Positions 53,426 through 63,204 of a stretch of 64,000 nt of DNA are shown in pieces. Both the position numbers and the translations under genes were made by a program. Source of the stretch: Lyngbya aestuarii BL J (GTDB lineage Bacteria; Cyanobacteriota; Cyanobacteriia; Cyanobacteriales; Microcoleaceae). Location of the stretch: positions 1-64,000 of the forward strand of contig NZ_AUZM01000028.1 of assembly GCF_000478195.2 (NCBI RefSeq), read 5' to 3'. Under the pieces are notes generated by a model. It made no database searches and had not been told where the DNA came from. It saw nothing but the letters and a program-made list of their open reading frames with translations. The first letter of the stretch is position 1. Every line of letters begins with the position of its first letter.

Positions 53426-53509
53426 TTTGTCTTAAAAGCTTGTCATTTAGAGCTGATCATTTATAATGTTGGCTTGATTAATCTTTATGGGGAGTCACAT
53501 CAATTCAAA

Positions 53510-53788
53510 ATGTCTAATCTCAGCAAAATTTACTGTTTTCGGGCAAGTTACGAAGCCTCAATTGACTTAGATATCAATAACTTACCCGATTGGTTATCTG
53601 TCGCAATTAATTGGCAAGGATATCGGATTTCCACTCTCCCTTGGATTGCTAATGTTGCCCGTTTGCTCGGAAATCTAAATATTGAAGATCATCCCACCAG
53701 TTGGAAATCCTATCTGGAAAGTTTAGGGTTTAGAAATGTAACTCCGATATCGTGTGAAGATTTTCATGAGGATACATTGTACTGTTAA
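53510..53788 (+). CDS. Small unknown protein
   Basis: A 92-residue soluble protein (MSNLSKIYCFRASYEASIDL...) with a Trp-rich centre (LPDWLSVAINWQGYRISTLPW) and a Cys-containing end. A TTG start 36 bases upstream is possible. No family recognised. It lies just downstream of the SDR gene on the same strand, then the next gene is convergent, with only 21 bases between the stops. Confidence 0.65.
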   Translation: MSNLSKIYCFRASYEASIDLDINNLPDWLSVAINWQGYRISTLPWIANVARLLGNLNIEDHPTSWKSYLESLGFRNVTPISCEDFHEDTLYC

Positions 53789-53809: not shown

Positions 53810-55783
53810 TTAAGGACTCACACGCTGCCATAATCGTTGAATTTCTCGCAGTTCATTCGGCTGAGGAGCATCTAAAACAGAGATTTGAGGATTGACTTGA
53901 GCGCCAGGAATATGTTGATTCCAGGGACTGTTAGCAACCGATTCTAGATTAACATTAGAATAAATCGGTCGAAAACCATACTGAACAAATACCTTTTGTT
54001 GCTCAGGTTCACTCAGAAAATCCACAAATTTACTGGCAGCATGAGCAGTCCTTAAATTAACATGATGACGCAAAATTGCAGCCGTTGCAACGCTTTCGAT
54101 AGTGGGATTGAGATAATAGATTTGATAAGGTCTGCTTTGATTGATTCCCGCCTGTTGCCAACGAGATAAAGCAATACTTTCGTAAACAGTCGTCACATCA
54201 GCATCGTTGGGGCCGCGTGTGATAAATTCTTGCAATAAAATATCAGTTGAACGGGGCGGTTGATAAACAGATTGTTCGATCATTTTAAACAAAGATTCGG
54301 CGCTGGAAGTATTCAAGTTTAGCGAATTTCCCTGCTTGGAATTCAGCCACAAACTCAGCGTCACTTGACCACTATTAGAACGAGTCGGATCGGTCATTAC
54401 AAAATCAAAACTTCCCCAATTCTCTTGTCCGCCCATTTTATCCCAGGTTTTCGCTTGCATTGCTTGTTCAATTCGTTGCCAAGAAAATTGATTATTGGGA
54501 AACAATATTTTACCTCTTTCCGGCCAAGCAATTCCGACTAAAAAGGTTTTGGCGATCGCTTGGGGAGGTTTGTAAAAGAGTTCACCATCATTTGAGACTT
54601 GCCAACGTTGACTTAATTCCTCTAAAAATTCTTGACTAGCTGGAATTAAAACTGTAGGCTTAAAATCATTATTTTGATGAATGTAATTATTCACCATATC
54701 CGATGAACCTTGAAACTTAAGTTCGAGGTTAATATTAGGATATTTTTGTTCAAACTTCGTTTCTAGTTGTTGTAAAGGTTCGGCGAGTTCGCTACCACTC
54801 ACCACAACAATTTTCTGTTCAAGTCCGGGAATGGGTGCATAAGCTAAACCCACAACCAGACTCGCCAAAATCGTAGAAGTTATCAGTCGTTTATGTCGTT
54901 TAAGGGGAGAATTATTGTTCATTTTTGAAACCGTTTTTTGTCTCGTTTGCATTCCGAGTAACTGTTGAATTCGTGACTCCGTAGGAGGATGAGTTGAGAA
55001 TAACTGATTAAACATTTTCCCCTGAAAGGGATTAATAATCAAAAGAGAAGCATAGGTCGCTTGGCTGGAAAAAGGGATTTTTTGACTCTTTTCTATTCGT
55101 TCCAATGCTTTCGCTAAAGCCCGGGGATTTCCGGTTAATGAAGCGGCTCCCGCATCGGCTGCATATTCGCGAGTTCGAGAAATCGATAATCGGATTAATG
55201 TTGCAGTAATGGGCGCTAAAAGAACCATTAACAGCAAGGAAAATTGACGCAAAGGATTTGCACTTCTTAAATTAAAAATACTGCCTAAAAAGACCGTAGT
55301 TCCCAACTGTGTTAACAGCGAAATGGCTCCGGCTAATGTGGCTGCAATGGTTACAATTAACGGATCTCTGTGTTTAATATGGCTGATTTCATGGGCGATA
55401 ACTGCTTCTAATTCATCTTCGTGAAGCATTCTTAATAATCCCTCCGTTATCCCGATAACAGAGTTTTCTGGATTGCGTCCAGAAGCAAAAGCATTCGCCA
55501 TAGATGACGGAATAATATAGACTTTGGGAACGGGTAAATCAGCACGATAACAGAGTAATTTAACAATCGGATCGAGTAATTTTTTTTCTGGGGAATTGGG
55601 AGAACGAGCCTGATAAACCGACAAGACAATTTTATCGGAATGAAACCAGAGATAAAAGTTGATTCCAATAGCAATAACTAAACCAATCCCCGCACCCATT
55701 ACACCTCCAATGAGTAAATAACCCATGAGGATAATTAATCCAGTCAAGAAACCCAGTAATGCTGTTGTTTTAATGAAGTTCAT
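53810..55783 (-). CDS. HtpX-type M48 metalloprotease fused to a periplasmic solute-binding domain
   Basis: About 657 residues. The N-terminal part (1-about 290) is HtpX-like: two hydrophobic segments (about 8-45), the zinc site HEISH (His131, Glu132, His135) and a third-ligand Glu in SRTREYAADAGAAS. A further membrane segment (about 300-318) leads to a substrate-binding-protein domain of the type-11 or molybdate-like class (about 325-650; IVVVSGSELAEPLQQL, TDPTRSNSG, YGFRPIYS). The start ATG (55783) overlaps the TAA stop of the upstream gene by one base (TAATG), with GGAG before it. The binding domain is homologous to that of the vWA lipoprotein in the same cluster. Confidence 0.9.
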   Translation of the reverse strand: MNFIKTTALLGFLTGLIILMGYLLIGGVMGAGIGLVIAIGINFYLWFHSDKIVLSVYQARSPNSPEKKLLDPIVKLLCYRADLPVPKVYIIPSSMANAFASGRNPENSVIGITEGLLRMLHEDELEAVIAHEISHIKHRDPLIVTIAATLAGAISLLTQLGTTVFLGSIFNLRSANPLRQFSLLLMVLLAPITATLIRLSISRTREYAADAGAASLTGNPRALAKALERIEKSQKIPFSSQATYASLLIINPFQGKMFNQLFSTHPPTESRIQQLLGMQTRQKTVSKMNNNSPLKRHKRLITSTILASLVVGLAYAPIPGLEQKIVVVSGSELAEPLQQLETKFEQKYPNINLELKFQGSSDMVNNYIHQNNDFKPTVLIPASQEFLEELSQRWQVSNDGELFYKPPQAIAKTFLVGIAWPERGKILFPNNQFSWQRIEQAMQAKTWDKMGGQENWGSFDFVMTDPTRSNSGQVTLSLWLNSKQGNSLNLNTSSAESLFKMIEQSVYQPPRSTDILLQEFITRGPNDADVTTVYESIALSRWQQAGINQSRPYQIYYLNPTIESVATAAILRHHVNLRTAHAASKFVDFLSEPEQQKVFVQYGFRPIYSNVNLESVANSPWNQHIPGAQVNPQISVLDAPQPNELREIQRLWQRVSP

Positions 55784-56316
55784 TAGTTTTTTACTCCTTG
55801 GAATAAACGATAAAATAGAGTTAATACTCCCGGAACAAACCAAATAAAAACATAAATAATCCTTCCTAAATATTGTATTTTTATCCAGAAAGAAGAACCA
55901 TGTAAAGTGACTACCGATGCTCCCGTATTGATACCCAATTCAATAATTTTCCCCTCATCTTCACGCGCTTTATAATCATTAGAGCCATAATCTTTAAAAA
56001 AAATCTCCTCGCCCTCTTTAGGGGTAATGTAGGCTTCATAGTTGATTTCTTTATAAGATGTACCTTCGGAATCTCTACGAATGATCTCCTTTGTTTTTAC
56101 TTGAAAAGTTGATAGTCGAAAAGGAGGCGATGAATCTGATAAGAAACCGAATAGATATTGATTATCAAATTGACAAGTGACATAATTTCGTTCTAATCGT
56201 TCACAAGTTAACTGAGTTGAACTACCGAAGAACAGTATTAATATTGGCAAACCAATAACTGTTATCAATAGAGTATTTTTGTCGGTTGGTTTTGTCCTGG
56301 TTCTAGTCATACTCAA
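55783..56316 (-). CDS. Small membrane protein of the sensor-protease cluster, unknown function
   Basis: A 177-residue protein with one hydrophobic segment near the N-terminus (about 16-34), a soluble middle (STQLTCERLERNYVTCQFDNQYLFGFLSD, with two Cys) and a second segment at the C-terminus (about 150-170). Its stop codon is overlapped by the start of the HtpX fusion gene, so translation is coupled. No family is recognised. It is presumably an envelope component of the same cluster. Confidence 0.75.
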   Translation of the reverse strand: MSMTRTRTKPTDKNTLLITVIGLPILILFFGSSTQLTCERLERNYVTCQFDNQYLFGFLSDSSPPFRLSTFQVKTKEIIRRDSEGTSYKEINYEAYITPKEGEEIFFKDYGSNDYKAREDEGKIIELGINTGASVVTLHGSSFWIKIQYLGRIIYVFIWFVPGVLTLFYRLFQGVKN

Positions 56317-56365
56317 AGATTGCTAAACTTCTAACCTAATCTCTTGTAAAATTGCCGATCATTCC

Positions 56366-57091
56366 TCAATTAATAAAAATATCCAGATTGGCTTGATAAT
56401 CATTCAGTTCATTACTCAAACTTCTCAATTCTTGCAAATCTTTTGAATTACTCAAGTCAGCCGTTCTCAACTTATTCTGAAGCTTTTGTAACACACCTGC
56501 CGAGTTTTGAATGCTCGTAGAAAGGCTAATAATTTTAGCTTCGCGAGTATCTTGACCCGCTTGAACTAACGCCATATTGCGTTCTAAACTTGCTGCTAAC
56601 TGCTCCAAATTTTGACGGGTAATACCCGAACTCGAACGAATTTTACTTTTCACCTCTAAAAGCTGTTTTTCCAGTTCATTAACCGAGAGTAAAGACTCCT
56701 GTTCCGGTAAACGTTCGGCAATTTTATCAATTTTTTGGGGTAATTCAATAGTGCGATCGCAAATGTCCTGAACCGCCACCAAAACCTCGATATTAAAAGA
56801 GGTTTTATTCATTAACTTATTGGCTTCCTGACGCAATTCTTCGGCTTTGATAGCTAGATTTTGACTGGAGACTTTCAACAGTTCTACTTCTTGTTGTAGT
56901 TGCTGTTGAGCAATTGTTTTCGCCTCCGGTTCTCGGGATTTTAAAACCGATGCAGTCGCCACCGTAACCACTGCGACTGTAGGAAGGATAATCTTATTAG
57001 ATAACCCCGCCAAACGAACACCCGCAACCAGAGTAATTCCTCCCATCAAAACAGCAATAGGATAATAGATTGGATTCGCTAATTTAATCAT
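56366..57091 (-). CDS. Membrane-anchored coiled-coil protein
   Basis: A 241-residue protein with a hydrophobic N-terminus (about 8-50) and a helical, Gln/Glu/Leu-rich remainder typical of coiled coils (about 58-100, 120-240; LQQEVELLKVSSQNLAIKAEELRQEANKLM). No enzymatic motif. It lies between the vWA lipoprotein gene (29 bases upstream) and the small membrane protein gene (49 bases downstream). It could act as scaffold for the other membrane proteins; this is inference. Confidence 0.78.
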   Translation of the reverse strand: MIKLANPIYYPIAVLMGGITLVAGVRLAGLSNKIILPTVAVVTVATASVLKSREPEAKTIAQQQLQQEVELLKVSSQNLAIKAEELRQEANKLMNKTSFNIEVLVAVQDICDRTIELPQKIDKIAERLPEQESLLSVNELEKQLLEVKSKIRSSSGITRQNLEQLAASLERNMALVQAGQDTREAKIISLSTSIQNSAGVLQKLQNKLRTADLSNSKDLQELRSLSNELNDYQANLDIFIN

Positions 57092-57120
57092 GTTCCCCTC
57101 CTTTATATATTTTCAATCCT

Positions 57121-58815
57121 TTAAAACTCAACTTGTAAATCTGCCATCAAAGTAGAAATCGTTTCCGGATCTCCCTGGCGATAATAACCGCTATTCAAGT
57201 CAGCAATTTCCTGTAAAACTGTTGAATTAAACTCGCCTTTTTTTCCATAGCCAATCGTAAAAAAGGCAATTCGTTGATCCGTATTAAAGCCTGTTTTTTT
57301 GAGTTCTTGTTGAAGTTTATCTAAAGAAATTTGAGATGCAGAATCTTCTCCATCCGTCAAAATAATCACCGCATTAATCGCATCCGGTTGTTGGTTTTGT
57401 TGCAGCCAAGTTTGAGCAGATAAAGTTGCATCATACAATTTTGTACCGCCTTCCGCTTTCAAATTATTAATAAATAGCATTCCTTGATTGCGTCCTTCTG
57501 ACGTTCCATCTACCACAACAGGCGGGCGAATTTCCGAGTCAAAATCAATCAGCGCAATTCTTTCTTTCACCCCCAAACTTTCGATATAATATCGCAAAGT
57601 ATTCTGAACTCCCGATAACTTTCTCCCCACCATTGAACCCGAAGAATCGACAACAATCACAACTTTTGAAGGTTTTTTTGCAAATTCTTGCCAAGACTTT
57701 AACATCGCCTCTACCACCTCCGGTTCCGGCGATCGCAAAGAATCATATCGAGCATTGGGATCGACTCCAAATTGAGGCGAAAATTTAGCCCCCAAAGCCA
57801 CTCCCGGCACACCGGGCCTCAATCCAAATTCAGTTGCTATTTTTTGAGCTTCAGGCGATCGCAAATACTCAATTATTTGTTCTGCTGCGGCTTGTTCATC
57901 CGCACTCACCCAAGGCGCATTTGGCAAAATTGCTCGCATATTTGAAGTAAAAGTAGATCGGGGATAAATCGCTTCATACTGAACTAAATTACTTTTTTTA
58001 TTTGTATTAGCCGCAATCACAGAAGACTCATAAACCGATGCAATTGACGCCCAAAATGAACCATTTTTCACCATATCAGAAGCCAAAGAATTCGTTGAAA
58101 TTCCGTAGCGAGTAACTTTACTTTGAATTTGTTGAACTTGGGATTGATACTGCTGGATATTTTCTACAGTTAATTGTTCGGGGGGTTTGTTCGCAACCGA
58201 AGCAAATTGAGTCACTAAAGTTTGTAAACCGGAATTAGAACGAGTCGGCGCCGTTTGTACAAAATGAATGGGCAATAAAGGACTGTTGGGATCGAGATCT
58301 TGATGAGTTTTTGCATTCAGTAATGCTTGGTATAAATTCTCTTGTTTGCGTAATCCGACCGCGACTTCTGAAGGCACCATAAACACCATTGGACTATTTG
58401 CTAAAAGCGGCGCATCGGTGACTTGGGGAATGTAATTTTGTCCGGGGAAAATCTGATTAATTTGATAGCGGAGTTGAGTCAGATAAATGTCTCCATCTAC
58501 AGAGATTAATGTCGGAAATTCGGGTGCTTCTGGGGGTAAAGTTCCGGCTTTGAATTGTTCGGCGAGAGAGACAACCTTACTCACAACATCTCCGCTCCCT
58601 TTGGCTTCACAACTTAGGTAAAAGGCTTGACCATTTTCTAGCTTATGTTTTTGTCGGTTAAACTGATGAGCCGCTTGGCTACAGAACTTTTCTAAAGCAC
58701 TTCCAACTAAAAATTTAACCTCGATTTCTTCTCCACTAGAAGCAGAATTACAAGCATTAAGCAACAGCAGTCCTGATGCGACCATCAGACCTGTAATTAA
58801 GTGATGAGTTTTCAT
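57121..58815 (-). CDS. Lipoprotein with solute-binding domain and von Willebrand factor A domain
   Basis: A 564-residue protein. The signal ends in the lipobox LLNAC (lipid Cys22). Residues about 32-355 form a type-11 substrate-binding domain (KFLVGSALEKFCSQAA, TAPTRSNSGLQTL, ASVYESS, EFGLRPGVPGV). Residues about 382-560 are a vWA domain with an intact metal site: DSSGSM at 390-395, Thr in GGTKLYDA, and Asp in ILTDGEDS. The site should bind Mg2+ and a ligand. Blocks RSNSG, VYES and FGLRP match the binding domain of the HtpX fusion protein in the same cluster. Likely membrane-anchored in the periplasm. Confidence 0.92.
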   Translation of the reverse strand: MKTHHLITGLMVASGLLLLNACNSASSGEEIEVKFLVGSALEKFCSQAAHQFNRQKHKLENGQAFYLSCEAKGSGDVVSKVVSLAEQFKAGTLPPEAPEFPTLISVDGDIYLTQLRYQINQIFPGQNYIPQVTDAPLLANSPMVFMVPSEVAVGLRKQENLYQALLNAKTHQDLDPNSPLLPIHFVQTAPTRSNSGLQTLVTQFASVANKPPEQLTVENIQQYQSQVQQIQSKVTRYGISTNSLASDMVKNGSFWASIASVYESSVIAANTNKKSNLVQYEAIYPRSTFTSNMRAILPNAPWVSADEQAAAEQIIEYLRSPEAQKIATEFGLRPGVPGVALGAKFSPQFGVDPNARYDSLRSPEPEVVEAMLKSWQEFAKKPSKVVIVVDSSGSMVGRKLSGVQNTLRYYIESLGVKERIALIDFDSEIRPPVVVDGTSEGRNQGMLFINNLKAEGGTKLYDATLSAQTWLQQNQQPDAINAVIILTDGEDSASQISLDKLQQELKKTGFNTDQRIAFFTIGYGKKGEFNSTVLQEIADLNSGYYRQGDPETISTLMADLQVEF

Positions 58816-58926
58816 CGTTTGGTGTAGAATTTAATCTTCTACTACACTCTCAACCCCTCTCAGAGAATTTATGCAAAAATCTAAAATCCTTGAGTTTTGC
58901 CTCAGTTATAAATAAATAACCAGAGT

Positions 58927-61560
58927 TTAAAAACCGTTTAATTTAATAATTTCAAACATATTATCCTCCCCGTTATTTTTAACCACGACTAACACACTCT
59001 TCGTTGATTTAACATCATTTGAGGATTCAAAATAAATCTCTCCTTCTGCTCCTTGGGCGAAAAAATTCGGACTCGAAAGCTTTTGATAAAGCTGAATACG
59101 ACTTAAATTTCCGCGACTTTCAATCAAGGCTTTAATTATCGCTTTAGTGGCATCATATGAAGTAGCAGTTCGCCAGTTTACAGAGCCTTTCCAAAAGCGT
59201 TGAGCTTGTTGGGAAAATTCAGAATCCGGTCTTCGATGCCAGGGAATGGCAATGGTAAGATTTCCGTTAAAAGCTTCTTCACCCGCATCTTTTAAAGTTC
59301 GGAAGCTGTAAACAGAATCTCCGCCTAAAAGTTGTAAATCTCCATTCGTATTGTTAATAATTCCAATCGCTTTAGTGAGGCTTTCATCTGTAGCTGGCAC
59401 TAATAACAAGACTTCAGCACCCTGATCTTTTGCCTTTTCTACACAGTCCGCTGCACTAAAAACACGGCTCGATAAATCGCATTTTTGAACAAAAGAATTA
59501 GGATAGAGTAACTCCTCAAATTCATTGCTTAGAGATTCACTGTAGGCATTTCCCGAAACATAAGCAACTGCTACTTTTGCATCTTGTCCGAGTTGCTGAC
59601 GCATATATTCAAATAACTGTTGAGCCGCCATGCGATCGCTCGGAACTGTCCGAAAAACATAACGACTAAAATTAGATAAACTCACCGAAGTGCTGGTGGG
59701 AGAAATCGCAACCAATCGATGTTTATCATAAATTTCTCCGGCTTTCAGTGTCATATCGCTCGAATAGTGACCAATCACCCCTAATATATTTTGATTGTTG
59801 ACAAAAGCTTCAGCGACTTTTTCGGCAACTTTCGGGTCATATTCATCATCAGCAATTGTCACCAGTAAAAAAGTTTCATTGATGAAACCTTTGGTACAGT
59901 TAAATTGAGTTTGAAGTTCGGAAATTGCTTGATAAACTTCTTCCAAACCACAATTAATCTCAGTTTGAGCTTGAGCGACACCTCGTAAAATTTCTTGGGA
60001 AACATTGGGTTCACTGCCAATCGGTACACTCACACCAATTTCAACTTTTTTCCCCGTGTTCGTCTTGACTTTTTCTTGAATAATTGCATTATTCAAATAA
60101 ATGAGAGTTTCCGGATCGTTAGGATTTTCATTCAGCGCCCGAATAAAATTATTGATCGCCCCTCTATAATCTCGATTATTGTAGTCAAGAATTCCGGCTT
60201 TCTTTGCAGGGTTTACATTAGATGAAATTAGAAGCTTTTCACCCTGGCTAATTTGATTTTCTATTTTTTGGGGAGTAAGATATTGAGGTTTGTCTACTAG
60301 AATCTGATAGAAAATAGACGCAAATATTGTAACTAATGCCAAACTCGCTGTTATCCCCAACGGTTTGATCCAAGCTTGTAGGAGGGCTTTAGGCTTAATA
60401 AAATCTTGCCAAATCAGCGAGTTGCTAGAAAGCGTGACTTCCTGTACGCAAAGGGTAGGCAGCCAGGAAACACCCGGATAAGACTTTTCAAAACCAGATT
60501 CAATCAGTCTTTCTCTCGAAAAATGAATCGAATGAAACAGCGATTTGTTGTTGCTAAATTCTTCAAAAAAATACTTCAAAAACTTGACCGCCACTTCATC
60601 AGGAATCGGTTCTCGCATCACAATACTTCGAGGTAAACCCAACTCCGCCAGTTGGTGGGCGAGTCCTAAACCATCGCAAGAATTGAAAATTGCCAGTTGT
60701 AACCCCTGTTTAATTGCTATTCCAAAAGAACTTTTAAATTCTTCAATGGAAATTGCATCCTGAGTATTATTTAATTCAATCTTGCCAATTGTTCCATCAG
60801 GATTGGAACAACTATGACCCGAAAAAATAAATAAGTGATAACCGTTTTCGTCTCGCAATGCTTGTGAAAGTTCTTCGCGAGTCGGTTGTTTTAAAAAAGT
60901 AACTTGTGCATTTTTTTTCTCTAAAGCTTGAATGACTTCTTCATCAAACTGAGTATTAATTCCTTCACTATTCCCAATTAAAGCTAACACTTTAACTTGA
61001 GAATATTGACGAATGGGCTGAATTCGTGTCCGGCTGCTTTGGAGACGAACCGCCACTTCCGCCTGAGGAAAACGATATTTGAATAAGTCCCATTCTTGCC
61101 AGGGAAGACGGCGCAGTTGAGAGTGGTCTGTATCGAGAAAAAGACGGGCTTCTTTTCCGGTTTTTTGTAAGTGACTGAGAACGGCAATTAATTCATCTCT
61201 CAGGGGTTGCCAAGCCGAATCTTGACAATTTAGCCATTCGTTTAAACTATTAACAACCGATTCTTTTTGCTCGGAACTTCTCGCTCTGGCTTCAGAATCG
61301 GTGATAATTTTTTTCGGGTTAATTCGATGACTAACAACCTGACGAACCGCTTCAAATTGACTGTAGGAATATTGCCACTGACTGTAAGCCTGATGACGAT
61401 AATCGGAAGATTCAAATTGTACTTTTGAGGCTTCTAAATCACCGGGTAAAGCGGGCAAATAACCATCGAGGGAATTAATTTGAGCATCGCTCATCGCCAG
61501 CCGAACTCTAAATTTATTAACTCCCTGATCCCAGAATACAAGCACTTTGATAACTGTCAT
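58927..61560 (-). CDS. CHAT-domain protease fused through a transmembrane segment to TPR and a periplasmic binding protein domain
   Basis: An 877-residue protein. The N-terminal half is a caspase-like CHAT domain: catalytic His249 in IFSGHS and Cys295 in FNSCDGLGLAHQ, followed by MREPIPDEVAVKFL. One transmembrane segment follows (about 399-420, LALVTIFASIFYQIL), then a TPR-like helix pair (about 455-495), then a type I periplasmic-binding-protein domain of the Leu/Ile/Val-receptor kind (about 505-870; VEIGVSVPIGSEPN, ILGVIGHYSS, AISPTSTS). The layout places the protease in the cytoplasm and the ligand domain outside it. It is 19 bases downstream of the DUF1822 gene. Confidence 0.93.
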   Translation of the reverse strand: MTVIKVLVFWDQGVNKFRVRLAMSDAQINSLDGYLPALPGDLEASKVQFESSDYRHQAYSQWQYSYSQFEAVRQVVSHRINPKKIITDSEARARSSEQKESVVNSLNEWLNCQDSAWQPLRDELIAVLSHLQKTGKEARLFLDTDHSQLRRLPWQEWDLFKYRFPQAEVAVRLQSSRTRIQPIRQYSQVKVLALIGNSEGINTQFDEEVIQALEKKNAQVTFLKQPTREELSQALRDENGYHLFIFSGHSCSNPDGTIGKIELNNTQDAISIEEFKSSFGIAIKQGLQLAIFNSCDGLGLAHQLAELGLPRSIVMREPIPDEVAVKFLKYFFEEFSNNKSLFHSIHFSRERLIESGFEKSYPGVSWLPTLCVQEVTLSSNSLIWQDFIKPKALLQAWIKPLGITASLALVTIFASIFYQILVDKPQYLTPQKIENQISQGEKLLISSNVNPAKKAGILDYNNRDYRGAINNFIRALNENPNDPETLIYLNNAIIQEKVKTNTGKKVEIGVSVPIGSEPNVSQEILRGVAQAQTEINCGLEEVYQAISELQTQFNCTKGFINETFLLVTIADDEYDPKVAEKVAEAFVNNQNILGVIGHYSSDMTLKAGEIYDKHRLVAISPTSTSVSLSNFSRYVFRTVPSDRMAAQQLFEYMRQQLGQDAKVAVAYVSGNAYSESLSNEFEELLYPNSFVQKCDLSSRVFSAADCVEKAKDQGAEVLLLVPATDESLTKAIGIINNTNGDLQLLGGDSVYSFRTLKDAGEEAFNGNLTIAIPWHRRPDSEFSQQAQRFWKGSVNWRTATSYDATKAIIKALIESRGNLSRIQLYQKLSSPNFFAQGAEGEIYFESSNDVKSTKSVLVVVKNNGEDNMFEIIKLNGF

Positions 61561-61579
61561 TCTTCTAACCTTAATTAAC

Positions 61580-62521
61580 TTAAATCTTAAAATTTTCGAT
61601 AATCTTATCTTGATTTAAGGTGATTTGTAAACTAAATTGTTCCTGCGGTTTACAACCGACTTCCAACTCAATCCACTGATCTTCTTCTCTGGCTTGAGTC
61701 TTCATACAAGCGACTCCAGATTCATCGAGTACACTCACCTCCAAACCCGCAGGTAAATAAATGTTGTCTTCAAAGGAATAAAGTCTCATTTTAACATCAA
61801 CTTCTTCTGTAGAATTTTCGCTGACTCTTACAGTCAATAAAATAGCTGGCTTGGTGGGATCATTTTCCCATTGAATCACTTTACCTCGAATAAAGCTTTG
61901 TTCTAAGGACTTCGCAGTTCGGAAATTAGCCTCTCTTGCTGGTACTGAATTTGAACTTCTGACTGCATTCGGAATAGGTAATAATTGTATCGGTTGCCAT
62001 TCAGATTGAGTTAGGTTTTTCCACAAATTTTTCCATTTGCGATGCCATTCAATTGTATCAATTAAATGATCAAGGGAATGAAGCTGATTGAGAGGGATAG
62101 ATTCAGGAGGACAAGCAATTTCTTGAGCGGAAACAAACCCTAATAACTTGACTTGTTGGAGGTCTTCACTCAACTGAACCGTAACATAACCTAAACGGTT
62201 ATCAGCAACTTCTGGAGAAATTTCTAAATGATCTTGATTGGGTAAAATCGGAATACATTCTAGTTTACCTAAATGAGGTAAAACTAAGTCAGCTACATTC
62301 AACATTGCCCTTTTAGTAGGATGCCAACAGTCTCCTTGATCAATTGCAGTAGAAATGGATAACCATCCCAGATAATCTCGCACCGCAACAACCGCTAATG
62401 TATTGAGATAAACCTGTTTTCCTTTCTGCGGAGTAGCTTGTTCTCTAGCAAATTGTTGGGCAAAACGGTGAGCATCTTGGCTAATCGGAACAGGTAAAGT
62501 TAAAGAGAAAGTTTGGTTCAT
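61580..62521 (-). CDS. DUF1822 family protein
   Basis: A 313-residue protein of the cyanobacterial DUF1822 family (LNTLAVVAVRDYLGWLSI, GYVTVQLSEDLQQVKLLGF, a C-terminal beta region with VRVSENSTEEVDVKMRLY). No signal peptide. The function is unknown. Its start overlaps the stop of the sigma-like gene by four bases (ATGA), so the two are translationally coupled; this pairing with a sigma-like protein is a recurring arrangement in filamentous cyanobacteria, as I recall it. It is followed by the CHAT fusion gene. Confidence 0.9.
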   Translation of the reverse strand: MNQTFSLTLPVPISQDAHRFAQQFAREQATPQKGKQVYLNTLAVVAVRDYLGWLSISTAIDQGDCWHPTKRAMLNVADLVLPHLGKLECIPILPNQDHLEISPEVADNRLGYVTVQLSEDLQQVKLLGFVSAQEIACPPESIPLNQLHSLDHLIDTIEWHRKWKNLWKNLTQSEWQPIQLLPIPNAVRSSNSVPAREANFRTAKSLEQSFIRGKVIQWENDPTKPAILLTVRVSENSTEEVDVKMRLYSFEDNIYLPAGLEVSVLDESGVACMKTQAREEDQWIELEVGCKPQEQFSLQITLNQDKIIENFKI

Positions 62522-63204
62522 TTTTCTAGTCCAAAGCGTTTGCTAATTTGATCACCAATCGTTTGTAATAAAGGAAGACATTTCCGCTTCCAGTGAGAGT
62601 AAAGCGTTTGGTTGCTGATATTATATTCTCGGGCGATCTCAGAAATTTTATGAGGAGGTTGTTGTAAAAGTAGGCGTATTGCTAAAATTTGGCAATGACA
62701 TTCTGGTTGTTTTTTGGGATAACAATTTTTGAGCAGATTTTCGGGATCTTTTTCAATATACTCCCACACTGTATCCCCAATACTTAAACGTCTTTCCTTT
62801 TGAGTTTGTTCGATCCATCCCTCAAGATTGGTGATGGCATTTGGATCTTCTAAGCGATCCATTAGAGTGGTTGATTCTCCCTCTTTGTTGCTGATTGGAC
62901 GATCTAAACTTGGAGTATGATTAGTCGTAAACAAATCTCTAACCCTCCATTTTAAATAACCATTAATCCAACGAATAAGGCTCTGCTCAATAGAAGGAGG
63001 ACGGGGTTCAAAAGATTGAATGTTTTTACACACCCATTCTAGGGTACGATTGAGCGCCTCAGAATAGTCCCGATGGGAGGATCGGTATAAATCTGGATGT
63101 CCTTGGATGATAATCAGGAGTCGAGTTAAGGCTTTGCGTCCTTTGGAACTGGTGTGTTCAAATTGCTGGAGTTGCTCGATTAAGTCTTGAATTTGTTGAT
63201 CCAC
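62518..63204 (-). CDS. Sigma-70-like regulatory protein
   Basis: A 228-residue protein with sigma-region-2-like helices (YSEALNRTLEWVCKNIQSFEPRPPSIEQSLIRWINGYLKWRVRDLF) and a C-terminal helix-turn-helix of region-4 type (HKISEIAREYNISNQTLYSHWKRKCLPLL). A longer frame opens at a TTG at 63408, but homologues begin near VDQQIQDLIEQL. GGAG lies 10 bases before a GTG at 63204, which is chosen; the ATG at 63231 is an alternative. It is the first gene of the cluster and overlaps the DUF1822 gene. It may direct transcription or act as an adaptor protein. Confidence 0.85.
   Translation of the reverse strand: MDQQIQDLIEQLQQFEHTSSKGRKALTRLLIIIQGHPDLYRSSHRDYSEALNRTLEWVCKNIQSFEPRPPSIEQSLIRWINGYLKWRVRDLFTTNHTPSLDRPISNKEGESTTLMDRLEDPNAITNLEGWIEQTQKERRLSIGDTVWEYIEKDPENLLKNCYPKKQPECHCQILAIRLLLQQPPHKISEIAREYNISNQTLYSHWKRKCLPLLQTIGDQISKRFGLEK

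Follow-up and report, generated by a model that had tools for sequence, protein, structure and literature searches.

Two side-by-side gene modules of Lyngbya aestuarii join putative binding-protein sensors to a caspase-like protein and to a rare HtpX fusion

In this study, we report the analysis of a cluster of seven genes in a 64,000-nucleotide stretch of the genome of Lyngbya aestuarii BL J (contig NZ_AUZM01000028.1, positions 1 to 64,000; hereafter the window). The cluster consists of two side-by-side modules and is not one conserved seven-gene system. Judged by its gene and domain content, the first of them, module A, corresponds to the previously predicted EACC2-caspase neighbourhoods (PMC8195603). 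The second, module B, is a stand-alone set of binding proteins for which no published account was found, and in the window it includes a fusion of the protease HtpX to a solute-binding protein (SBP) that is both real and rare. For the cluster, the best mechanism that we can propose is a predicted ligand gating of proteolysis in the cytoplasm.

The ORF listing of the window revealed seven minus-strand ORFs that tile it from 63408/63204 to 53810, with intergenic gaps of -4, 19, 111, 29, 49, and about -1 bp in cluster order. This agrees with the earlier note on this DNA, which had described seven same-strand genes without a long gap, and the two overlaps that it had pointed out, ATGA at 62518-62521 and TAATG at 55783, are both present. 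Module A, entirely on the minus strand, comprises a sigma-like/HTH protein (62518-63204), a DUF1822 protein (61580-62521; Pfam PF08852, 4e-82) and a protein in which a CHAT domain is followed by a transmembrane (TM) segment, a TPR-like region and a type I periplasmic binding protein (PBP) domain (58927-61560; CHAT 1.7e-13, Peripla_BP_6 1.4e-21). The ORF of the first gene can be extended to 63408; however, the start sites of its homologues in the alignment favour the GTG at 63204, as had been proposed. Beyond a junction of 111 bp (58816-58926), module B begins on the same strand with a lipoprotein carrying a type II SBP domain of the SBP_bac_8/11 kind and a C-terminal vWA domain (57121-58815; SBP_bac_8 6e-22, VWA_2 3e-13), continues with an inner-membrane coiled coil, modelled by AF2 as two TM helices and then a helical domain (56366-57091), and ends with the fusion, in which HtpX (M48) is followed by a TM segment (300-318) and a type II SBP (53810-55783; Peptidase_M48 2e-32, SBP_bac_11 2e-19). 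An optional minus-strand gene for a small membrane protein, with homologues in five other loci (L041, L042, L045, L122, and L176), lies upstream of the fusion (55783-56316). Every named domain of the cluster was backed by Pfam/NCBIfam matches, and the active-site residues and the MIDAS motif were uniformly intact. The Pfam matches also bear out the previous claim that three of the products carry binding-type domains, each fused to a different module.

No Pfam family was matched by either the coiled coil or the small membrane protein. PADLOC returned only two spurious methyltransferase matches for the cluster (0.003-0.006), both on the small membrane protein, and thus gave no support for a known anti-phage defence system. 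Scans for promoters and terminators gave no more sites than shuffled sequence and are therefore uninformative on transcription units; in the junction at 58816-58926, no terminator-like site was found by these scans, which overall performed no better than on shuffled sequence. Just past the cluster, a 104-aa ORF without a Pfam match is located on the opposite strand (53474-53788, plus strand). Upstream of the cluster and past the end of the window, a WecG-type glycosyltransferase and a beta-lactamase-like protein are encoded (L167:1-1125 and 1407-2546).

The name "sigma-like" that the first product of module A had received is weakly founded: no more than a C-terminal HTH was recognized, in Pfam by HTH_7 only (6e-6). 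A profile comparison with the ECF sigma factors of its own genome reached a probability of 26%, limited to the HTH region, and the PDB profile search returned no match. The 4-bp overlap between this gene and that of the DUF1822 protein was also found in relatives (L198, L201, L251, and L252). In the CHAT protein, the dyad H249/C295 was conserved across every full-length homologue read, and hydropathy placed the TM segment at about residues 396-414. Residues 1-387 are conserved among CHAT proteins with differing C-termini, the sensor swapping between Peripla_BP_6, as here, and PBP_like_2, as in homologues; the PDB relatives of the binding domain are of the Leu/Ile/Val type. DUF1822 genes are present in eight copies in the genome of the window, distributed over contigs C1, C2, C7, C8, C19, C25, and C28, and in 4-13 copies in its relatives, and the trio of module A was found without module B at six loci (L149, L150, L151, L154, L156, and L157). 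Module A is a multicopy module that usually stands on its own.

Homologues of the cluster proteins were drawn from named genomes and from further genomes at the level of order, family, and class, and their neighbourhoods were read. Module B was recognized as a trio of fixed order (SBP-vWA lipoprotein, coiled coil, SBP) at about 58 distinct cyanobacterial loci. In the neighbourhood table (73 rows, some of them duplicates), SBP-vWA genes were followed on the same strand by the coiled coil in 64 rows and by the SBP in 63. At nearly all of these loci the SBP was unfused and no sigma, DUF1822, or CHAT gene was nearby. SBP-vWA occurred in 37 of the 196 genomes of the order. Outside the subscription journals, literature searches gave no description of module B and nothing relevant on SBP-vWA.

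The SBP-vWA protein of the window has an intact MIDAS (DSSGS390/GGT456/TDG487) and the lipobox LNAC. The type II SBP domains that module B carries on two proteins are paralogous (23% identity) and have PTRSNSG and VYES in common; on account of these shared motifs, they probably bind the same class of ligand. The AF2 model of the coiled coil (pLDDT 82.6) is all helix, with nine helices, the first two of which are the TM segments. A relationship to TelA or LemA was rejected, since the protein matched neither a Pfam family nor, as a model, any PDB fold at <0.001. Three genomes (G373, G307, and G362) encode coiled coil and SBP as a single protein of 602-606 aa (L276:10143-11960, plus strand; L277:7540-9348 and L278:7500-9320, minus strand). 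In these proteins the SBP anchor follows positively charged residues, so the coiled coil, and likewise HtpX in the fusion of the window, should lie on the cytoplasmic side of that anchor. The topology proposed earlier, with the binding domains outside and the protease domains inside, thus gains support from fusions found elsewhere. In Okeania, a second and more distant copy of module B was observed (L177, L179, and L180), and the sequence read around it did not contain module A.

The earlier note had regarded the seven genes as a single system, to be recognized by the conserved neighbourhood of its homologues. This was mostly negative, because modules A and B are apart in the great majority of genomes, and the neighbourhood tables reject a single seven-gene operon conserved among genomes; part of the proposal survives in that five further genomes have A immediately upstream of B and in the same orientation. 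One of them is Gomphosphaeria aponina (L051, same contig as L134), which belongs to a different family. The other four (G229, G230, G231, and G240) are of the window's own family and at least three are Okeania (G229, G230, and G231: SIO2C9, SIO2B3, and SIO1I7). The closest homologues of the A and B genes of the window are those of these A-B relatives (54-57% for CHAT-PBP and about 70-72% for SBP-vWA). In the four family members, extra CHAT and PBP paralogues are located at the place of the junction. Between A and B in L170, L198, L173, and L201 (Okeania-like), paralogues of three kinds (CHAT-PBP, CHAT-PBP_like_2, and TPR-PBP standing alone) were seen in tandem, and a similar array adjoins module A in L255. 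At the syntenic spot of another genome (G228, L251:5403-13500), module A is kept with a broken CHAT gene, next to a decayed remnant of module B.

Among the neighbourhoods read, no genome besides that of the window had all seven parts. Instead of HtpX-SBP, a plain SBP is present in the A-linked relatives; in the other genomes with HtpX-SBP, the upstream sequence read was limited to 1.7 kb for Microcystis and <1 kb for L273 and showed no module A. The flanks of the A-B loci of the relatives share none of the 23 flank proteins of the window. Given that the flanks are wholly different and A-B was kept, the adjacency has outlasted the surrounding gene order, and the chromosomal context of the family loci, which is unlike that of the window, indicates a genuine but optional pairing. 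Because the window and its four family relatives are all kin, the six genomes with the pair, the window included, amount to only about two independent lineages. This scarcity, together with the multicopy character of the DUF1822 modules (4-13 per genome) and with the presence of B without A in G244 and in the second Okeania copies, speaks for A and B being independent modules that are neighbours by happenstance. Module B would then serve uptake or envelope upkeep, module A would be just one among the many CHAT/DUF1822 systems, and relatives would show the adjacency through ordinary shared ancestry, a reading that we consider possible and to which we give less than even weight. Against it count an adjacency kept amid wholly different flanks, the same order and strand in Gomphosphaeria, a member of another family, and a rough expectation of about 0.5% per genome for chance adjacency (from 8 copies, a same-strand distance of 10 kb and a 7-Mb genome). 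Although this is unlikely, chance could still have produced the pair in two independent lineages out of some twenty families. Outside the subscription journals, neither the A-B pairing nor the fusions of coiled coil and SBP were found in the literature.

With respect to the HtpX-SBP fusion, both HEISH131 and EYAAD206 are intact in the protease domain, which scored 297 bits and thus below the cut-off of the NCBIfam HtpX equivalog (369). Full-length HtpX-SBP proteins were found beyond the window in Microcystis wesenbergii (L048/L181; 661 aa, 60-61%) and in G498 (L273; 653 aa, 55%). The HtpX parts of the fusions form a subclade that is separate (support 97) from housekeeping HtpX, to which the second copy in the genome of the window belongs. 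The subclade also takes in one stand-alone HtpX (L168) and two HtpX-TM-LemA fusions, in G024 (L245:4523-6148, minus strand; LemA 8e-45) and G260 (L246:5230-6858, plus strand; LemA 6e-34). In G474 (L274:5030-6613, plus strand), a single ORF combines the N-terminus of the small membrane protein, a C-terminal remnant of HtpX, and an intact-looking SBP, the catalytic core having been lost. For the fusions of HtpX to SBP or LemA, the searches, made outside the subscription journals, gave nothing relevant.

The TM segment that follows the HtpX domain in the fusion is the SBP's own N-terminal anchor, and the SBP of the window groups with unfused SBPs of its own family. The SBP parts of the HtpX-SBP proteins do not form one clade, and AU tests rejected the view that one ancestral fusion was passed on along with its SBP (p 0.013 with two members and 2.6e-5 with three). 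Therefore, either SBPs were repeatedly joined to the same HtpX subclade, or the fusion is ancestral and was followed by many losses and by domain exchange; both histories imply that the connection of HtpX and SBP is useful. By fold, the SBP half is a type II binding protein whose nearest structures are those of ferric, citrate, and sulfate binding proteins; the AF2 model, which was poor at residues 230-291 and around 507-537, was used for this fold only.

HtpX is a protease of membrane-protein quality control, and the fusions of the same subclade to LemA indicate that the C-terminal position tolerates different accessory domains. On these grounds, HtpX-SBP could be a quality-control protease whose SBP is an adaptor handing over periplasmic or membrane substrates, without any gating by a ligand. 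This is somewhat unlikely in view of the PTRSNSG and VYES that its SBP retains in common with that of the vWA lipoprotein, which suggests that ligand binding is still selected. As SBPs usually serve transporters and the fold of this one points the same way, module B might also supply the periplasmic component of an ABC transporter used in scavenging, whose membrane parts would lie elsewhere, the vWA protein and the coiled coil being assembly aids and HtpX only quality control, but this is improbable, given that Pfam revealed no permease or transport ATPase among the seven genes and that the SBP is fused to a coiled coil or a protease predicted to face the cytoplasm in six genomes, which is unexpected for a mobile transport SBP.

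We consider it an evenly balanced proposition that the locus is a composite envelope-to-cytoplasm sensing unit made of modules A and B. Module A would be a CHAT transmembrane receptor of the EACC2 kind, whose type I binding domain detects a small ligand in the periplasm and controls the cytoplasmic cysteine protease. This protease may cleave itself and/or the coupled DUF1822 and HTH/sigma-like proteins, resulting in a change of transcription. In module B, one type II SBP would be carried by the vWA lipoprotein and the other by an inner-membrane anchor, the latter being joined to a cytoplasmic output, usually through its coiled-coil partner. In the window, that output would be HtpX, an inner-membrane zinc protease, with the SBP as its candidate ligand gate. 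Binding of periplasmic ligands to the SBP domains would be relayed through single TM helices to the CHAT and HtpX domains, at or within the cytoplasm, the DUF1822 and HTH proteins would be released or modified by proteolysis, and the two modules would have been kept together in the lineage of the window as one sensing unit. The data show the domains, the intact active sites, the two conserved trios, the optional linkage of A and B, and the recurrent HtpX-SBP fusion, and we infer ligand gating, activation of the proteases, the transcriptional output, and the cooperation of A and B.

Extended beyond the window, module B would be a widespread ligand-sensing module of orphan SBPs that control cytoplasmic partners. 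Some genomes would have recruited the HtpX subclade as a ligand-gated protease beside the caspase-like receptor, one envelope signal then reaching two proteases and a transcriptional switch. Taken as a whole, this wider picture is tentative and rather unlikely. If true, there would be a direct path from a small extracytoplasmic ligand to intracellular proteolysis in cyanobacteria, which may be likened to that of death receptors, and HtpX would no longer be just a housekeeping protease but a gated enzyme of signal transduction. The fusions of coiled coil and SBP (three genomes), of HtpX and SBP (three), and of HtpX and LemA (two) provide concrete partner predictions that can be tested. As roughly one in five genomes sampled from the order carries module B and no description of it was found, even the ligand of one SBP would open a new pathway.

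As for known systems, the earlier note knew of none with this combination. This holds for the combination as a whole and not for its first half, because neighbourhoods composed of a sigma factor, DUF1822, and a caspase with a variable C-terminal sensor were predicted as EACC2-caspase systems, for which autoproteolytic activation with a sigma output was proposed (Kaur et al., 2021; PMC8195603). Module A has in common with them a neighbouring DUF1822 gene and a caspase-superfamily protein with its dyad and a variable C-terminal sensor. Their ECF sigma factor may correspond to the HTH/sigma-like protein, of which the C-terminal HTH alone is recognizable, and their constant N-terminal alpha+beta EACC2 domain, which precedes the caspase, may correspond to part of the conserved residues 1-387. 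It differs in that the sensor is here a type I PBP after one TM segment, whereas small-molecule-binding domains in general are named in PMC8195603, where no link to module B was found. Fusions of a caspase-superfamily protease to a PBP sensor are also known from EACC1-caspase systems, stated to have TM-PBP (Kaur et al., 2020; PMC7159879), and from orthocaspases with Peripla_BP_6, PBP_like_2, or ANF_receptor (PMC8283722; PMC3501461). The former are mainly actinobacterial two-gene systems and the latter are of the p20 type and not CHAT; neither is tied to DUF1822 or to module B in these papers. The vWA-MoxR ternary conflict systems resemble the cluster in having a vWA protein beside a protease-bearing signalling protein in cyanobacteria, but here the vWA is on a secreted lipoprotein, and no MoxR AAA+ ATPase was identified by Pfam or NCBIfam among the seven genes. 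Finally, HtpX-SBP agrees with HtpX (M48) in being a zinc protease with N-terminal TM helices, HExxH, and a distal Glu, and with the HtpX-LemA fusions in carrying a C-terminal accessory domain after an extra TM segment, while it departs from housekeeping HtpX in having an SBP as that domain, a score below the equivalog cut-off, and a subclade of its own.
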